A DNA stretch of 49,409 nucleotides from Conexibacter sp. (GTDB lineage: Bacteria > Actinomycetota > Thermoleophilia > Solirubrobacterales > Solirubrobacteraceae). Every line of letters starts with the position of its first letter. Position 1 is the stretch's first letter. Position numbers and translations under genes: made by a program. Below the pieces are notes generated by a model. The model was not told where the DNA came from and ran no database searches. It saw only the letters and a list, made by a program, of their open reading frames with translations. Below are positions 5,622-49,409 of this stretch, piece by piece. The stretch lies in the NCBI GenBank assembly GCA_025964325.1, contig JAOPZA010000008.1, forward strand, positions 1 to 49,409, given 5' to 3'.

Positions 5622-6357
5622 TTGGTCGGACCACTTCTTTCGCTCTGAGCGGTCGCAGCCGCACGTGGGCGTGGTGCTCGGCCGTCTCCCCGATCGCCCG
5701 CTCCGCCTGGCGCAGCGCCCGCGCGCTCGCCTCCGGCGCCTCCGCGAGTGGGCGCCCCAGCGCGCTCACGAGGAACGTGTGCGCCTCCTCCGCGAGCGGG
5801 AAGGCCGATGCCTCGCAGGAGCTGCAGACGACGCCGCCGGCCTCGCCCGAGAAGCCGCTGAGGTGGTCGACCTCGCCGCACGAGGCGCAGGAGGCGAGCT
5901 GCGGCGTGAAGCCGCCCGCCACCAGCAGCTTGAGGCGGAAGGCGAGCTGCGAGGCGGTCGCGGAATGGCGCGCCTCGCCGTCGAGCAGTCGCAGCTGGTT
6001 CGCGAGCAGGTGGAAGACCGGCGGGCTCGGATCGCCCGCCTCGAACAGACGCGAGACGGCGTCGCAGGCGCGCGCGGCCGCGTCGAGCGAGTCGGCGCGC
6101 TCGCGCAGCGGCCCGTGCGCCTCGAGCGTCTCCGCGCTCGTGACCGTCCGCAGGTCGCCGCGCCCCTCGTACAGCAGCACGCGCAGGTGGAAGAACGGCT
6201 CCAGCCGCGCGCCGAAGCGGCTGCGCGTGCGGCGCGCGCCCTTCGCGATCGCGCCGACGCGGCCGTGCTCGGGGGTGTAGAGGTGGAGGATGCGGTCGGC
6301 CTCGCCGTAGCGGATCGAGCGCAGCACGATCGCCTCCGTGCGCAGCGATCTGGACAC
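5617..6357 (-). CDS. recO: DNA repair protein RecO
   Basis: Recombination mediator that loads RecA with RecR and anneals SSB-coated strands. It has 246 residues, the typical length. The N-terminal OB fold begins SLRTEAIVLRSIRYGEADRI and continues KGARRTRSRFGARLEPF. The helical C-terminal half contains a four-cysteine zinc site (CASC...CSSC, around residues 160-185). Start is GTG at 6357. It is divergent from the glutaredoxin gene with 42 bases between, and lies just upstream of ppdK. Confidence 0.95.
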   Translation of the reverse strand: MSRSLRTEAIVLRSIRYGEADRILHLYTPEHGRVGAIAKGARRTRSRFGARLEPFFHLRVLLYEGRGDLRTVTSAETLEAHGPLRERADSLDAAARACDAVSRLFEAGDPSPPVFHLLANQLRLLDGEARHSATASQLAFRLKLLVAGGFTPQLASCASCGEVDHLSGFSGEAGGVVCSSCEASAFPLAEEAHTFLVSALGRPLAEAPEASARALRQAERAIGETAEHHAHVRLRPLRAKEVVRPI

Positions 6358-6383
6358 TCTTAGACGTTCCCCGAACCGGGAGC

Positions 6384-6389
6384 TATATT
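6384..6389 (+). promoter_or_regulatory. Probable -10 element of the glutaredoxin gene
   Basis: TATATT on the plus strand, 10 nt before the ATG at 6400. The intervening GCGGAAGCA gives at most a weak GGAAG ribosome binding site, so the transcript is leaderless or nearly so. Confidence 0.55.
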
Positions 6390-6399
6390 TGCGGAAGCA

Positions 6400-6654
6400 A
6401 TGAAGCCGATCACGATGTACACCACCGACCGCTGCCCGTACTGCATTCGCGCCAAGGCGCTCCTGCAGAGTCGCGAGCTCGCGTTCGAAGAGATCAATCT
6501 GGCAGGTGATCCCGACGGACGCACGAAGCTCGTCGAGCTCACGGGCATGATGACGTTCCCGCAGATCCTGATCGGGAACGAGCCGATCGGCGGCTACGAC
6601 CAGCTCGCGGCCGCAGATCGCAACGGCTCCCTGACCGAGCTGCTGGCCGCCTAG
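6400..6654 (+). CDS. Glutaredoxin (GrxC-type)
   Basis: A small cytoplasmic thiol-disulfide oxidoreductase of 84 residues with the full glutaredoxin fold. The active site is CPYC (residues 14-17, in YTTDRCPYCIRAKALL). The cis-proline region is TFPQILIG, and GGYDQL is the conserved Gly-Gly loop. It could reduce disulfides or carry an Fe-S cluster; in actinobacteria the reducing thiol may be mycothiol. It is a single gene between divergent recO and convergent mutM. Confidence 0.93.
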   Translation: MKPITMYTTDRCPYCIRAKALLQSRELAFEEINLAGDPDGRTKLVELTGMMTFPQILIGNEPIGGYDQLAAADRNGSLTELLAA

Positions 6655-6703
6655 CGCGGCCGGCCGCTCGGACAGTCACCCGGCGAGCGCGCAGCTTCGC
6701 CGC

Positions 6704-7558
6704 TCATCGCGTCATGGGCACGATCAGCGCACCACGCGGCCGCGGCTGGCAGCGCTCGCAGACGTAGGTGCCGCGACCGGCGACGAGGATCTTGCGGACC
6801 GTCCCGCCGCATTCCGGGCACGGCTCGCCCTCCCGGCGGTGGACGAGGAAGCGGTCCTGGAAGCTCCCGCGCGCGCCGTCGAGGTCGCGGAAGTCGTCGA
6901 TGCTCGCGCCGTGCGAGTCGATCCCGAGCTGGAGCGCCTCGACGATCCCGTCGCGCAGCAGCCGCCACTGCGCGAGCGTCACTCTGCCGACCGGGCGCAG
7001 CGGATGGATGCCGGCGCGGAAGAGCGCCTCGTCGGCGTAGATGTTGCCGACCCCCGCGATCTTCCGCTGGTCGAGCAGGAACGCCTTGATCGGCGCGCGT
7101 GAGTTGCGGGCGAGCGCGCGCAGGTGCTCGGCGGTGAAGTCGTCGGAGAACGGCTCGACGCCGAGCCGCGCCGCGAAGTACGCGTCGAGCGCGGGCTGAC
7201 CGGCGACCAGCCGGCCCGTGCCGAAGCGGCGCGGATCGACGAAGCGCAGGTCGTGGTCGTCGTCGAAGCCGAAGTGGGCGCGCGTGTACGGCGTCCCCTC
7301 CGGCGCGTCGTACAGCAGGTTGCCCGTCATCCGCAGGTGCATCAGCAGGAAGAGCTCGTCCTCGGCCTCCCAGATCAGGTACTTGCCGCGGCGGCGCAGC
7401 GCGACGATCGTGCGGCCGACGAGCGGGCCGACGACCTCGTTCGGCGACGCCGGCGCCGTCCACCGCTCGTCCCGCACGGCGTAGGCGACGAGCATGCGGC
7501 CCTCCAGCCGTGGCGCGAGCTGGCGCCGTACCGTCTCGACTTCGGGTAGCTCGGGCAT
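6704..7558 (-). CDS. mutM: Formamidopyrimidine-DNA glycosylase (MutM/Fpg)
   Basis: Base-excision repair enzyme that removes 8-oxoguanine and formamidopyrimidines and nicks the DNA. The 284 residues begin with MPELPEVETVRR, giving the catalytic Pro2 and Glu3 after Met removal. It has GKYLIWE with the conserved beta-elimination Lys, the H2TH segment (DQRKIAGVGNIYADEALFRA), and a C-terminal zinc finger (CPECGGTVRK...YVCERC). It is the last gene of the minus-strand block that begins at tlyA, about 110 bases downstream of deoB, with hairpins in that gap. TAAGCT lies 7 nt before its ATG. Confidence 0.97.
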   Translation of the reverse strand: MPELPEVETVRRQLAPRLEGRMLVAYAVRDERWTAPASPNEVVGPLVGRTIVALRRRGKYLIWEAEDELFLLMHLRMTGNLLYDAPEGTPYTRAHFGFDDDHDLRFVDPRRFGTGRLVAGQPALDAYFAARLGVEPFSDDFTAEHLRALARNSRAPIKAFLLDQRKIAGVGNIYADEALFRAGIHPLRPVGRVTLAQWRLLRDGIVEALQLGIDSHGASIDDFRDLDGARGSFQDRFLVHRREGEPCPECGGTVRKILVAGRGTYVCERCQPRPRGALIVPMTR

Positions 7559-44052: not shown

Positions 44053-44459
44053 GCGTCGTCCTCCAGGATCGCGCCGTGACGCGCCAGCCAGCCCTCGAGC
44101 AGCACGGCGGCCGCGCGCGAGTCCTCGCTCTCGCGGCCGCCGACCCGCGCCGCGATCAGCGTCGTGAAGCGCTCGTCGTACAGGTCGATCGGCAGCTCGC
44201 CGCCGAGCGCCTCGCCGAGTCGCTGCGCGAACGCGCGGGCCTCGGTCGTCTGCGCCGTGTCCTCGCCCGAGAGGCCGACCGGCAGCCCGACGACGACGCG
44301 CCCGATCTCGCGCTCGCCGACCAGCCGCACCAGCCGCGCCATCCCCTTGCGTGTCGCGGGCCGCTCGACGGCCGCGATCGGCGTCGCGATCGTCCCCGTC
44401 GGATCGCTCACCGCACAGCCGCAGCGAGCACTGCCGTAGTCGAGCGCCAGCACGCGCAT
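44049..44459 (-). CDS. ruvX: Putative pre-16S rRNA nuclease / Holliday junction resolvase-like YqgF
   Basis: RNase H-fold protein of 136 residues involved in 16S rRNA 5' maturation in other bacteria. Motifs: VLALDYGSARCGCAVSDPTG (first Asp), IGRVVVGLPVGLSGEDT, YDERFTT (Glu) and EDSRAAAVLLEGWL (Asp). ATG at 44459 shares its A with the alaS TGA (TGATG), so translation is coupled. The alaS-ruvX-mltG-aroE order is conserved in actinobacteria. Confidence 0.94.
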   Translation of the reverse strand: MRVLALDYGSARCGCAVSDPTGTIATPIAAVERPATRKGMARLVRLVGEREIGRVVVGLPVGLSGEDTAQTTEARAFAQRLGEALGGELPIDLYDERFTTLIAARVGGRESEDSRAAAVLLEGWLARHGAILEDDA

Positions 44460-47113
44460 CAACCCGCGAGCGCCGCCTCGATCGCCGCTCGCGCGGCGTC
44501 GATCGCGGCCGGCAGCTGCTCCGGATCGCGTCCGCCGGCACGCGCCATCGTGTCGCGGCCGCCGCCACCGCCGCCGGTCACCTCGGCGGCCACTCTGACG
44601 ATCGCGCCGGCCTTCACGCCGCGCGCGACCAGCGCCGGCGCGACCGCGGCGACGAGGTGCACGCGCCCGTCTGCAACGGCGCCGAGCACGATCGCGGCGT
44701 CGCCGAGTCTCGCTCTCAGGCGGTCGGCGACGTCGGGCAGCGTCTTCGGGTCGGCGACCTCGACGACGGCGGCGACGACGCGCGCGCCGTCGTGCTCGGT
44801 CGCGGAGGCGCTCAAGGCGTCGACGTCGACGCCGCCGCGAGCGCCGCCGGACTGCTTCTCCGCTCGCTCGAGCTCTCTGACCCGCTCCCGCAGTCTCGCG
44901 ACGAGGTCGGGCACGCGCTCGGGCGTCGCGCGCAGCGTCTCCGCCGTCTCGCGCAGCGCGGCGTCGTGGGCGCGCAGGAGGTCGACGGCGGCCGGTCCGG
45001 TGAGCGCCTCGATGCGGCGCACGTTGGCGGCGCTGGAGGTCTCGCCGACGACGCGGAAGAGCCCGATCTCGGCGGTGGAGCGGACGTGCGTCCCGCCGCA
45101 CAGCTCGCGCGAGAAGGAGCCGTCGCCGATCTCGACCATCCGCACGACGTCGCCGTATCTCTCGCCGAAGAGCGCCATCGCCCCGAGCCGCCGCGCCTCG
45201 TCGAGCGTCGTCGTCAGCGCGCGCACGCGGTGGTTCTCGAGGATCCAGCGATTGACGTCGTCCTCGACGTCGCGCAGCTCCTGCGGCGTGAGCGCCTGAC
45301 CGTGCGTGAAGTCGAAGCGCAGCTTGTCGGGCTGCACCGACGAGCCCGCCTGCCGCACGTGGTCGCCGAGCCGGCGCCGCAGCGCGGCGTGCAGCAGGTG
45401 CGTGGCGGTGTGGTTCGCCTCGGTCGCGTGGCGCGCACGGCGGTCGACGACCGCGCGCACCTGCGCGCCGGGCGTCAGCTCACCGACCTCGGGCGTGACG
45501 ACGAGCACCTGGTCGTCGCCGCCGGAGAGGCGGAAGACCTCGTCGACGCGGGCGCGGACCTCACCGTCGGTCGACTCGACCAGCCCGCTGTCGGAGACCT
45601 GGCCGCCACCGGCGGCGTAGAAGGGCGACTCGAGCAGCTTCACGAGCGTGCGACCGTTCTCGGCCTCGAGCGCGCCGACCGTCGTCGCCTGCTCGGTCGT
45701 CTCGTAGCCGGTGAACTCGCTCGCGAAGCCAACGCCGCCGGCGAGCGCGCGGGCGCGGTCTCTCAGCGCGTCGACCGTCTGCGTCCGTCCGCCGCCGAGG
45801 CGCGCGCGCGTGCGCTGCTCCTCCATCAGCTGCTCGAAGCCCTCGTCCTCGACCCCGAGGCCGTGCTCGGCCGCGATCTCGCGGGTGAGGTCGACGGGGA
45901 AGCCGAACGTGTCGTGGAGCTGGAAGACGTCCTGCGAGGCGAGTCCCTCCTCGCCGTCGACCTTCGCGCGCGCGATCAGGTCGTCGAGCAGGCGCGTGCC
46001 CTGCTCGAGCGTGCGGCCGAAGCCCTCCTCCTCGCTGCGGACCCACGCGCGGATCGCGGCGCGCTGCTCGCGCAGCTCGGGATAGGCGGAGCCCATCACC
46101 TCCTCGACGCGGTCGGCGAAGCGCGGCAGGAAGCCCTGCTCGATCCCGAGCGCGCGGCCCTGCTGGATCGCGCGGCGCATCACCCGGCGCAGGATGTAGC
46201 CGCGGTCCTCGTTCGAGGGCACGACGCCGTCAGCGATCAGGAACGTCATCGCGCGCGAGTGGTCGGCGAGGATCCGCAGCGCGCGGGTCGTCGCGAAGTC
46301 CTCGCCGTAGCGGCGGCCCGAGAGCTCCTCGCCGAGCGAGATCAGCGGCTGGAACTGATCGGTCTCGAAGACCGACGGTCTGCCCTGGAGGATCGCGGCG
46401 AAGCGGTTGAGGCCGAGGCCGGTGTCGATGTTGCGGGACGGCAGCGGCGTCAGTCTGTTCGCCGGGTTCTGGTCGTACTGCATGAAGACGAGGTTCCAGA
46501 ACTCGAGGAAGCGCTCGTTCTCGCCGCCCGGAAGGTCGTCGGGCGCGCCGAACTCGAGGCCGCGGTCGAAGTAGAGCTCCGAGCAGGGGCCGCACGGCCC
46601 GAGCGGACCGGCCTGCCAGAAGTTCTCCGAGCGCGGGCACTCGACGATCCGCTCTCGCGGCATGCCGGCCGCCTGCCAGAGCGCGATCGCCTCCTCGTCG
46701 GGGCCGAGCCCCAGCTCCTCGTCGCCGCCGAAGACGGTGACCCAGATCTCCTCGGGCTTGAAGCCGAAGCCCTGCGTCGACAGCTCCCAGGCGTACGCGA
46801 TCGCGCCCTCCTTGAAGTAGTCGCCGATCGAGAAGTTGCCGAGCATCTCGAAGAAGGTGAGGTGGCGCAGCGTCGTGCCGACGTTCTCGATGTCGCTCGC
46901 GCGGAAGCACTTCTGGCAGCTCGTCAGGCGCGGGTACGGCGGCCGCTCCTGCCCCGCGAAGTACGGCTTGAGCGGGTGCATCCCGGCCGTCGTGAGCAGC
47001 ACGGAGGGATCGAACGTCGCCGGCACGAGCGGCGCCGACGGCAGCCGGTGGTGGTCCCGCTGCTCGTAGAAGTCGAGGAAGGTCGAGCGGATCTCGTCAG
47101 AGGTCATCGTCAT
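44459..47113 (-). CDS. alaS: Alanyl-tRNA synthetase
   Basis: Charges tRNA-Ala. It has 884 residues: class II core (DEIRSTFLDFYEQRDHHRLP, MHPLKPYFAGQERPP, the GTTLRHLTFFEMLGNFSIGD motif 2 region and TGLGLNRFAAILQG motif 3), the editing domain with HTATHLLHAALRR and CGGTHVRSTAEIG zinc-type motifs, and the C-terminal DHHA1/C-Ala part (RGVKAGAIVRVAAEVTGGGG). ATG at 47113 is 9 nt after TAGACT; the in-frame ATG at 47107 is possible. A perfect palindrome lies just upstream. Confidence 0.97.
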   Translation of the reverse strand: MTMTSDEIRSTFLDFYEQRDHHRLPSAPLVPATFDPSVLLTTAGMHPLKPYFAGQERPPYPRLTSCQKCFRASDIENVGTTLRHLTFFEMLGNFSIGDYFKEGAIAYAWELSTQGFGFKPEEIWVTVFGGDEELGLGPDEEAIALWQAAGMPRERIVECPRSENFWQAGPLGPCGPCSELYFDRGLEFGAPDDLPGGENERFLEFWNLVFMQYDQNPANRLTPLPSRNIDTGLGLNRFAAILQGRPSVFETDQFQPLISLGEELSGRRYGEDFATTRALRILADHSRAMTFLIADGVVPSNEDRGYILRRVMRRAIQQGRALGIEQGFLPRFADRVEEVMGSAYPELREQRAAIRAWVRSEEEGFGRTLEQGTRLLDDLIARAKVDGEEGLASQDVFQLHDTFGFPVDLTREIAAEHGLGVEDEGFEQLMEEQRTRARLGGGRTQTVDALRDRARALAGGVGFASEFTGYETTEQATTVGALEAENGRTLVKLLESPFYAAGGGQVSDSGLVESTDGEVRARVDEVFRLSGGDDQVLVVTPEVGELTPGAQVRAVVDRRARHATEANHTATHLLHAALRRRLGDHVRQAGSSVQPDKLRFDFTHGQALTPQELRDVEDDVNRWILENHRVRALTTTLDEARRLGAMALFGERYGDVVRMVEIGDGSFSRELCGGTHVRSTAEIGLFRVVGETSSAANVRRIEALTGPAAVDLLRAHDAALRETAETLRATPERVPDLVARLRERVRELERAEKQSGGARGGVDVDALSASATEHDGARVVAAVVEVADPKTLPDVADRLRARLGDAAIVLGAVADGRVHLVAAVAPALVARGVKAGAIVRVAAEVTGGGGGGRDTMARAGGRDPEQLPAAIDAARAAIEAALAG

Positions 47114-47184: not shown

Positions 47185-48702
47185 TCAGGCGACTGGCACG
47201 CTCGTGGGCTCGGGTGCGGCGATCGCGAGCCGCTCGGGGTCGACGACGATCGTACCCCAGCCGACTACGACGTCGCCGTCCATCAGGCAGGCGAGCTGTC
47301 CGGGAGCGGCGCCGTCGATCGGCTCGCCGAGCTCGAGCTGCGCGCGCCGGTGGCTGCCGGCGGCCGCCTCGTCGAGCAGCCGCGCCGGCAGCGGCGGGGC
47401 GTGGTAGCGCAGCTTCACGCCGTCGACGCGGGCCCCGTCGCGGTGCAGGCGCAGCCCGCGGATCGCGACGCGCGTCGTGCGCAGCTCAGCGCGGGTGCCG
47501 GCGACGACGCGGTTATGGCGCGGATCGGTCGCGAGCACGTAGAGCGGCTCGCGCCCGGAGACCCCGAGACCCTTGCGCTGCCCGACGGTGAAGCCGTGGT
47601 AGCCGCGGTGACGGCCGAGCACGCGACCGCGACGGTCGACGATCTCGCCCGGCTGCTCGACCATCTCGCCGTGGCGCACGAGGAAGGCGTTGCGGCTCGT
47701 GCCGGCGAGGAAGCAGAGGTCCTGCGAGTCGGGCTTGCTCGCGACCGGCAGCGCGGCCTCGGCGGCGATCGCGCGCACCTCCGGCTTGACGAGCCCGCCG
47801 AGCGGGAAGCGCAGCCGCGCGAGCGAGGCGGGCGCGAGCGCGGCCAGCATGTAGGTCTGGTCCTTCGCCGGGTCGGCGGCGACGCGCAGCAGCGGCCCCG
47901 CGGCCTCGTCGTGCTCGACGACGCGGGCGTAGTGGCCGGTCGCGAGGTGCTGGGCGCCGAGCCGGTCGGCCAGTTCGAGCATCGCGTCGAGCCGGACGTG
48001 CCCGTTGCAGCTGACGCACGGGTTCGGCGTCTGGCCGTCGGCGTGGCCGGCGAGGAACGGGTCGACGACGCCGGCGCGGAACTCGTGGCGCAGGTCGAGC
48101 GTGAGGTGCGGGATCCCCATCCGGTGCGCCAGCCCGCGCGCGACGCGGACCGCCTGCGCCGAGCAGCAGGAGCGCTCGCCGTCGTTCTGCTCGTCGGCCC
48201 ACAGCTCGAGCGTGACGGCGAGGACCTCGCTGCCGTCGCGCGCGCTCAGCAGCGCGGCGACGGCGGAGTCGACGCCGCCGGACATCGCGACGAGCGTGCG
48301 GGTGCGGCGCTCGGCTGGCGGCGCGAGCTGCGCGCTCGCGCGGGCGGCGGTGCCGAGCGCGCGGGCGAGCGCGTCGGCCGCCAGCTCGGCCGCGTGGAGC
48401 TTCGCGGGGCTGAGGCCGCCGAGCTCCTGCGCGATCTCCTCGACGCCGATGCGCGCCGCGTCGACGAGCGACCGGCCGCTCACCAGCTCGACGGCCGCGC
48501 TGCCGGCTGCGATCGCGGCGCCGCAGCCGTCGACCTCGTAGCCGGCGTCGGCGACGTGGGTTCCGCTCGGGTCGAGCGCCAGCGTGAAGCGGATCACGTC
48601 GCCGCACTGGCGCGTGCCCGCGACGCCGCTGGCGCCGCGCGGGGGCGCGTGGCCGCGGCTGCGGGGATAGGTGAGGTGATGCTCGAAGCGCTCGCGATCC
48701 AC
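47185..48702 (-). CDS. mnmA: NifU/IscU-like domain fused to tRNA 2-thiouridylase MnmA
   Basis: A 505-residue fusion. Residues 1-117 resemble an IscU/NifU scaffold: RQCGD (Cys33, Asp35), VDGCGAAIAAGSAAVELVSG (Cys60) and GGLSPAKLHAAELAADAL, where the third ligand Cys is Ala104 after a conserved His103. Residues about 134-505 are MnmA, which inserts sulfur at U34 of tRNA: PP-loop SGGVDS (141-146), TPNPCVSCNGHVR, GHYAR, SKPDSQDLCFLAG with the second catalytic Cys, and HGFTVGQRKGLGVSG. Start GTG at 48702 is 7 nt after TACACT and includes the full first domain. It stands before alaS, as mnmA often does. Confidence 0.93.
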   Translation of the reverse strand: MDRERFEHHLTYPRSRGHAPPRGASGVAGTRQCGDVIRFTLALDPSGTHVADAGYEVDGCGAAIAAGSAAVELVSGRSLVDAARIGVEEIAQELGGLSPAKLHAAELAADALARALGTAARASAQLAPPAERRTRTLVAMSGGVDSAVAALLSARDGSEVLAVTLELWADEQNDGERSCCSAQAVRVARGLAHRMGIPHLTLDLRHEFRAGVVDPFLAGHADGQTPNPCVSCNGHVRLDAMLELADRLGAQHLATGHYARVVEHDEAAGPLLRVAADPAKDQTYMLAALAPASLARLRFPLGGLVKPEVRAIAAEAALPVASKPDSQDLCFLAGTSRNAFLVRHGEMVEQPGEIVDRRGRVLGRHRGYHGFTVGQRKGLGVSGREPLYVLATDPRHNRVVAGTRAELRTTRVAIRGLRLHRDGARVDGVKLRYHAPPLPARLLDEAAAGSHRRAQLELGEPIDGAAPGQLACLMDGDVVVGWGTIVVDPERLAIAAPEPTSVPVA

Positions 48703-48709
48703 GTCCCCG

Positions 48710-48715
48710 AGTGTA
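48710..48715 (-). promoter_or_regulatory. Probable -10 of the NifU-mnmA gene
   Basis: TACACT on the minus strand, 7 nt before the GTG at 48702. It supports starting translation at the NifU-like domain, so the fusion is expressed as one protein. Confidence 0.5.
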
Positions 48716-48756: not shown

Positions 48757-49409
48757 ATGGAACTGACCTCCGCGGAATCCCTGCTGCTGCTCTCGCTCGG
48801 CGACGACAAGGGCGAGAACCCGATCGGGGACGTCCTCGAGCTGGCGATCGCGGGCGGGCTGCTGCTCGACCTCTCGGCCGGCGGCGCCCTCGTCGAGTGC
48901 GGCGGGCTGCTGCTGGCGGAGCCGGACACCGAGCTGGAGGACGCGCTGCTGCGCGAGGCCTACGTCGCGATCCTGACGGCGCCCAAGCCGCGCGAGCCGG
49001 GCGCCTGGGTCCAGCGACTGCCGCGGGAGCTGAAGCCGATCCAGCGCTACGTCTGCGAGCGTCTCGTCGAGCGCGCGGTCCTCACAGAGGTTCCGCGGAG
49101 CAGCTTCTTCGGCGCGCATCGCTATCCGACGCGCGATCCTGCTCCGGAGCACGAGCTGCGCGAGCGGCTCGCCGCCGTCCTGTCGGGCGACGCCGCGGCC
49201 GAGCCGGCCGAGCGGCGACTGGCGGCGCTGCTCGCCCCGCTGGAGCTGGCCGGCACGCTCGTCCCCGAGTCCGAGCGCGCGGAGGCGACCGACCGCGCGA
49301 GAGCGCTCGCGGAGGAGCAGTGGGCGGACGGCGCGGCGCAGGAGACCGTCGACGCCGTGCGAGACGCCGTCACGGCGGCCCTCGGCGCCGATCGGCGCCC
49401 GCCCGCCGC
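48757..49409 (+). CDS. GPP34 (GOLPH3-like) family protein, 3' end missing
   Basis: The first 217 or so codons of a helical protein, still open at the window edge. ELTSAESLLLLSLGDDKGEN, then AIAGGLLLDLSAGGALVE, LKPIQRYVCERLVERAVL and the FFGAHRYPTRDPAPE hairpin are typical of GPP34, the family of the eukaryotic Golgi PI4P-binding protein GOLPH3. Bacterial members are common in actinobacteria and their function is mostly unknown; membrane phosphoinositide binding is a possibility. ATG at 48757 has no clear ribosome binding site. It is divergent from NifU-mnmA. Confidence 0.85.
   Translation, partial: MELTSAESLLLLSLGDDKGENPIGDVLELAIAGGLLLDLSAGGALVECGGLLLAEPDTELEDALLREAYVAILTAPKPREPGAWVQRLPRELKPIQRYVCERLVERAVLTEVPRSSFFGAHRYPTRDPAPEHELRERLAAVLSGDAAAEPAERRLAALLAPLELAGTLVPESERAEATDRARALAEEQWADGAAQETVDAVRDAVTAALGADRRPPA

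Follow-up and report, generated by a model that had tools for sequence, protein, structure and literature searches.

An IscU-like domain that lacks the third cluster cysteine is fused to a C-type MnmA in Solirubrobacterales

Results

The window analysed here, a stretch of 49,409 nucleotides from a Conexibacter sp. of the order Solirubrobacterales (assembly GCA_025964325.1, contig JAOPZA010000008.1), carries on its minus strand a gene (47185..48702, stop included) that starts with a GTG at 48702 and encodes a protein of 505 residues in which an IscU/NifU-like domain is joined to the tRNA thiolation enzyme MnmA. A preliminary description made from the DNA sequence had proposed this fusion at these coordinates, omitting the strand, and both halves are confirmed by Pfam and by fold. 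Four Pfam domains score above their curated cut-offs, namely NifU_N at residues 8-117 (48352..48681, minus strand; 88.7 bits, cut-off 22), tRNA_Me_trans at 135-333 (211.6 bits), a PRC-barrel at 347-401 and a C-terminal barrel at 429-485, the MnmA part (HUP domain, PRC-barrel and C-terminal barrel; 47188..48309, minus strand) beginning at about residue 132. In a fold search of the Protein Data Bank (PDB) with an AlphaFold2 model of the fusion (alignment of 29 relatives; mean pLDDT 92.2, pTM 0.90), residues 2-125 matched IscU (4eb5_C; Z 20.9, rmsd 2.4, 136 aligned), human ISCU2 (Z 20.2) and SufU (Z ~15), while residues 131-492 matched MnmA (2hma, Z 40.0) and the E. coli MnmA-tRNA complex (Z 38); no solved structure of the fusion was among the matches listed. 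The fusion passes the NCBIfam MnmA equivalogs NF001138 (336.5 bits, cut-off 284) and TIGR00420 (278.9 bits, cut-off 237) and contains the PP-loop SGGVDS motif. Its N-terminal domain (N-domain) scores 63-70 bits with the IscU/NifU equivalogs, below their cut-offs of 188-273, and 27.6 bits with the SufU equivalog SUF_scaf_2, below its cut-off of 92.5. No second MnmA was found in the window genome, where the fusion is the sole MnmA, and the only other NifU_N protein there is a SufU beside SufS.

The translation agrees exactly with the residues named in the preliminary description, which had Cys33, Asp35, Cys60 and His103 retained and Ala104 in place of the third cysteine. On the minus strand, Cys33 (48604..48606) occupies the position of ISCU2 Cys69 and of the acceptor cysteine in SufU (Cys40 in Mycobacterium tuberculosis), and the putative metal ligands Asp35 (48598..48600), Cys60 (48523..48525) and His103 (48394..48396) correspond to ISCU2 Asp71, Cys95 and His137. 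In a residue-level alignment with IscU the window sequence KLHA lies over KMHC, which sets Ala104 (48391..48393) opposite the third cluster cysteine (ISCU2 Cys138). Across 135 genomes of families f1-f5 and f22 (132-134 ungapped rows per column), only five of the roughly 125 domain columns are invariant, C33 (132 of 132 ungapped rows), D35, C60, H103 and A111, against a commonest-residue frequency that averages 58% over all columns of the domain. These genomes have Ala, Gly or Val at position 104 and never Cys, so that the question raised earlier, whether Ala104 is conserved, is answered by a fixed lineage trait. His103 and Cys104 occur together in none of 168 rows from the fusion-bearing families (a few of these rows being unfused MnmA or lacking an in-frame domain), as compared with all five ligands in 13 of 13 unfused IscU proteins from iscS-iscU-mnmA operons.

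Other families have lost different ligands. Families f8, f10, f11 and f53 show the opposite pattern, in which the His is lost and C-D-C plus Cys104 are mostly kept, giving a SufU-type ligand set. All 16 genomes of f9 (L091-L094, L294-L305) keep Cys33 and have lost the other four ligands (D35 to A/V, C60 to S/A, and neither His103 nor Cys104). Most ligands are lost in f15, and in f7 (L082-L086, L222-L229) the domain is shortened to about 70-80 residues and every ligand is gone. In free human and mouse ISCU, Cys69, Asp71, Cys95 and His137 form a tetrahedral Fe/Zn site, and Cys138 accepts the persulfide from NFS1 (PMC11021402). Judged by its residues, the window domain keeps exactly the mononuclear metal site of ISCU, putatively still able to bind metal, without the cysteine that serves class I desulfurases and the cluster. 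In f9 Cys33 outlasts every other ligand, which points to this residue as the one engaged in the chemistry.

The MnmA half is an ordinary C-type MnmA, a class that the preliminary description overlooked. It had credited MnmA with both of its cysteine motifs; these are indeed present, and their number is three rather than two, the complete set comprising the CC motif (Cys179-Cys180, 48163..48168), the CxxC motif (Cys229 and Cys232, 48007..48018) and Cys330 in DLCF (47713..47715), the equivalent of E. coli Cys199, all read on the minus strand. The C-type MnmA of Thermus thermophilus carries a [4Fe-4S] cluster that is needed for activity, as shown in that species only, and how the cluster works is unsettled (PMC8584467); a cluster role in E. 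coli MnmA is debated (PMC11784392). From the motif, any cluster in the fusion protein would most likely sit on the MnmA half.

The preliminary description had called for a survey of such fusions in the class Thermoleophilia. In a search covering the window genome and 120 relatives (121 genomes), the fusion was present in nearly all of those genomes that gave a match, across four families of Solirubrobacterales; most families of the class carry it, and at the level of the phylum it recurs in a further family, f22, which we infer from gene content to be Rubrobacteria and in which IscS is adjacent. Together these form a sizeable group of soil-dwelling actinobacteria. A search of genome contigs with a narrow alignment gave 35 loci, all from Solirubrobacterales or from loosely classified actinobacterial metagenome-assembled genomes, the relatives including Solirubrobacter, Paraconexibacter, Svornostia and other Solirubrobacteraceae and Solirubrobacterales. 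The next gene downstream of the fusion in the window is alaS (44459..47113, minus strand), which follows the fusion in 29 of the 35 named loci (several of the rest being short contigs) and is common to most relatives and to the unfused operon. Our literature search, made mostly without subscription papers, found no paper on a NifU/IscU-MnmA fusion; the architecture is probably listed in automatic domain databases.

Unfused counterparts occur in family f6 of the same class (L281-L285), where rrf2-iscS-iscU-mnmA is followed slightly further downstream by alaS and all five IscU ligands are present (5 of 5), and in family f28 of the phylum, with iscS-iscU-mnmA and again all five ligands (8 of 8). 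Given these operons and the shared downstream alaS, the fusion is best explained as a joining of operon neighbours. Three f28 genomes (G286, G341 and G414) that were considered as fusions were rejected, the two genes being adjacent in one frame with a stop between them. In f22 the two parts form a single reading frame in some genomes and two overlapping frames in others, all of them reading His-Ala or His-Gly, and the third cysteine therefore appears to have been lost when IscU became the partner of MnmA rather than strictly at fusion. A strict rule that the cysteine was lost at gene fusion was rejected, as four Rubrobacteria-like genomes with split or overlapping frames (L121, L290, L291 and L293) read H-A; these split frames may stem from genes that fused and separated repeatedly, or from frameshifts in draft genomes. 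In an MnmA tree that left out f6, one branch (SH-aLRT 99) separates f1-f5, f7-f11 and f22 from f28, f36, f15 and f53. Fused domains occur on the second side as well, in f15 and f53, and the genes may have fused more than once or in part have split again. Two further observations concern individual genomes: the fused MnmA frame at L088 (G129, 5869-7494) is interrupted by a single in-frame TAG, on either side of which the two parts are otherwise complete, and three f6 genomes (G127, G132 and G157) have an additional second iscS-iscU pair (L286-L288).

A second feature overlooked by the preliminary description is an apparent lack of IscS in the window's order. With a class I IscS as query, scores of 228-354 bits were obtained in f5, f8, f9, f10 and f11, whereas no hit exceeded 97 bits (SufS-like, at about 30% identity) in 17 of 17 genomes from the order, mostly single-contig or nearly so; IscS was likewise not found in the two f7 genomes tested. 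Loss of IscS was also considered as the cause of Ala104 and rejected, f22 having an adjacent IscS and yet Ala or Gly at this position. SufS-like proteins are present in the order. The SufS of the window genome scores 554 bits (cut-off 475), has an HPHD motif and lies in one SUF locus with SufU and a SufC-like ATPase; the metal-swapping histidine (HPHD/HxHD) is present in those SufS proteins of the order whose sequences were inspected. With SufS present and IscS not found, the sulfur donor in the window's order would most likely be SufS. The persulfide of SufS is protected and normally requires SufU or SufE. The first cysteine in the metal site of SufU (Cys40 in M. tuberculosis) takes this persulfide through a zinc-ligand swap with the SufS histidine (PMC10216065).

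A -10-like element, TACACT (48710..48715, minus strand), lies 7 nt before the GTG and had been cited as support for expression of the full fusion. This argument is strengthened by its conservation: in the window's family, 45 of 50 loci have a TA[GC]ACT-like site 4-12 nt upstream of the fusion start, at 6-9 nt in 43 of the 45, as compared with 0.5% at random control positions in the same loci. A conserved site just before the fusion start suggests a leaderless transcript that would begin with the IscU-like domain. A divergent GPP34-like gene (111 bits; 48757-49407, plus strand) starts 54 bp from the start codon of the fusion.

Discussion

We favour, as slightly better than an even bet, the interpretation that the N-domain is a former scaffold turned into a sulfur acceptor dedicated to MnmA, metal-gated as in SufU and loaded on Cys33. 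In an ancestral rrf2-iscS-iscU-mnmA-alaS operon, IscU would have been supplied as the neighbour of MnmA; once dedicated to it, IscU would have dropped the third cluster cysteine and been joined to MnmA, giving up cluster building. The resulting domain would hold a single metal ion (Zn or Fe) through Cys33, Asp35, Cys60 and His103. Docking to a cysteine desulfurase would release Cys33, as happens in SufU, so that it could take the persulfide and pass it on to the catalytic centre of its own chain's C-type MnmA, where U34 would be thiolated. The donor in the window's order would most likely be SufS, with a protected persulfide that calls for an acceptor of this kind, and the likeliest route there is SufS to Cys33 to MnmA, each transfer being a predicted step. 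To this extent the unusual sulfur-relay design suggested by the preliminary description gains support for Thermoleophilia.

Several observations weigh against this interpretation. In f7, where IscS was likewise not found, the domain is shortened and all ligands are lost, and MnmA can therefore work without the domain, so that the relay is not indispensable everywhere. The Rubrobacteria-like genomes with the C-D-C-H/Ala set have IscS next door, and Ala104 does not track the loss of IscS. The N-domain is nearer to IscU than to SufU (NCBIfam 63-70 versus 27.6 bits), which leaves its docking to SufS unproven. The ISCU2 equivalent of Cys33 is dispensable when a class I desulfurase transfers its persulfide (PMC11021402), YrvO of Bacillus subtilis serves MnmA directly with no acceptor (PMC11784392), and SufE of Plasmodium falciparum is dispensable for the MnmA branch (PMC10219651).

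Some of the same evidence would suit an N-domain that, with a structural metal, only recruits the desulfurase (SufS, or IscS where present) and so places its persulfide beside MnmA, no sulfur passing through the domain. This account, which we consider doubtful though the strongest of the alternatives, draws on the direct service of MnmA by YrvO (PMC11784392), on M. tuberculosis IscS and TrmU, which are co-transcribed and physically associated without IscU (PMC10848736), on the desulfurase loop cysteine that itself coordinates the metal at this site in ISCU complexes (PMC11021402), and on the f7 domain, which has no ligand cysteine at all. An adaptor would not, however, require Cys33, and it is Cys33 that all 16 f9 genomes keep with the metal ligands gone; nor is the loop of a class II desulfurase such as SufS expected to reach far. 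The earlier suggestion that the domain only binds a cysteine desulfurase thus stands as a possibility that accounts less well for the invariance of Cys33 in f9. The other earlier suggestion, a built-in scaffold building or relaying an Fe-S cluster to MnmA through Cys33, Asp35, Cys60 and His103, is unlikely. It has in its favour the IscU fold, the four potential ligands that remain and a C-type MnmA half that probably needs a [4Fe-4S] cluster; but a residue needed by known IscU scaffolds is missing, the full ligand set that every unfused operon IscU has (13 of 13) is found in no fusion-family row (0 of 168), different members of the His-Cys pair were dropped in different lineages, f9 does without the other four ligands, and the genome has a SUF system of its own (SufS, SufU and SufC-like ATPase at one locus).

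That the fused domain is a decaying vestige, serving now as no more than a folding aid or linker, would fit the loss of half the domain in f7 and of most ligands in f15 and f9, and is nevertheless quite improbable, since four ligand residues are 100% invariant over 132-134 genomes of f1-f5 and f22 where the commonest residue of a column averages 58%. Open frames abound in high-GC genomes, and the gene could be imagined to start truly after residue 117, the upstream frame being an annotation artefact. The IscU-like Pfam match, fold and ligand conservation upstream of residue 117 and the -10 element conserved immediately ahead of the fusion in 45 of 50 relatives leave this reading with a negligible probability, and it is in practice refuted. 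A sequencing or assembly error, which the preliminary description had named as what would undo its proposal, is ruled out together with a spurious frame by the conserved -10 element and by conservation across the order, the architecture being shared by practically every relative within the order and by most of the class.

If the N-domain is indeed an on-board acceptor, we would tentatively go further, while thinking this extension less probable than the acceptor role itself: an Fe-S scaffold may have been converted into an on-board transpersulfurase that surrendered cluster assembly and the class I acceptor cysteine and retained a metal-gated Cys33. This would have let MnmA exchange IscS for SufS as its source of sulfur, freeing Solirubrobacterales to lose IscS, and the parallel losses (C-D-C-H, C-D-C-C, Cys33 only, none) may be outcomes of one conversion. 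The source of sulfur for C-type MnmA, by persulfide or by cluster chemistry, is an open question (PMC11784392, PMC8584467). The fusion, in which a candidate donor domain is tethered to MnmA and has been altered by degrees within a single phylum, opens this question to experiments on single proteins, with natural variants that have all five ligands (unfused), four, Cys33 only or none. The fusion also bears on tRNA thiolation in organisms that have only SufS.

With the IscU/NifU N-terminal scaffolds (Archaeoglobus fulgidus IscU, 4eb5; human ISCU2) the window domain shares the fold (Z ~20), Cys33, Asp35, Cys60 and His103, and descent from an operon iscU; it differs in having Ala, Gly or Val for the third cluster cysteine and in being fused to MnmA, and cluster assembly is not expected of it. 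Because the defining three cysteines are not all there, we do not class it as a scaffold in spite of its IscU descent. With SufU (B. subtilis, 5xt5 and 6jzv; M. tuberculosis, 8odq) it would share a metal site of four ligands, an acceptor at the first cysteine and, as likely partner, a SufS with the HPHD histidine, whereas it is closer to IscU in sequence, has His103 where SufU has its last cysteine and is fused to MnmA; the 21-23 residue insertion of SufU was not seen in the window N-domain. By analogy the N-domain may work like SufU, though by sequence it is not a SufU. The MnmA half resembles the Thermus thermophilus type in all three cysteine motifs and in MnmA equivalog scores above cut-off, and departs from it in the IscU-like N-terminal extension of about 130 residues. 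The iscS-trmU operon of M. tuberculosis likewise pairs MnmA with a desulfurase in an actinobacterial operon (PMC10848736), but there the IscU domain is absent and IscS is present. The published design that comes closest is the apicomplexan MnmA of P. falciparum, whose N-terminal SufE-like domain is proposed to take sulfur, as a built-in acceptor, from SufS, the desulfurase that serves its compartment (PMC10219651). The fold there is that of SufE and here that of IscU, the two are of independent origin and the acceptor role is a proposal in both; the fusion described here would be a bacterial parallel to the domain proposed on the MnmA of the malaria parasite.
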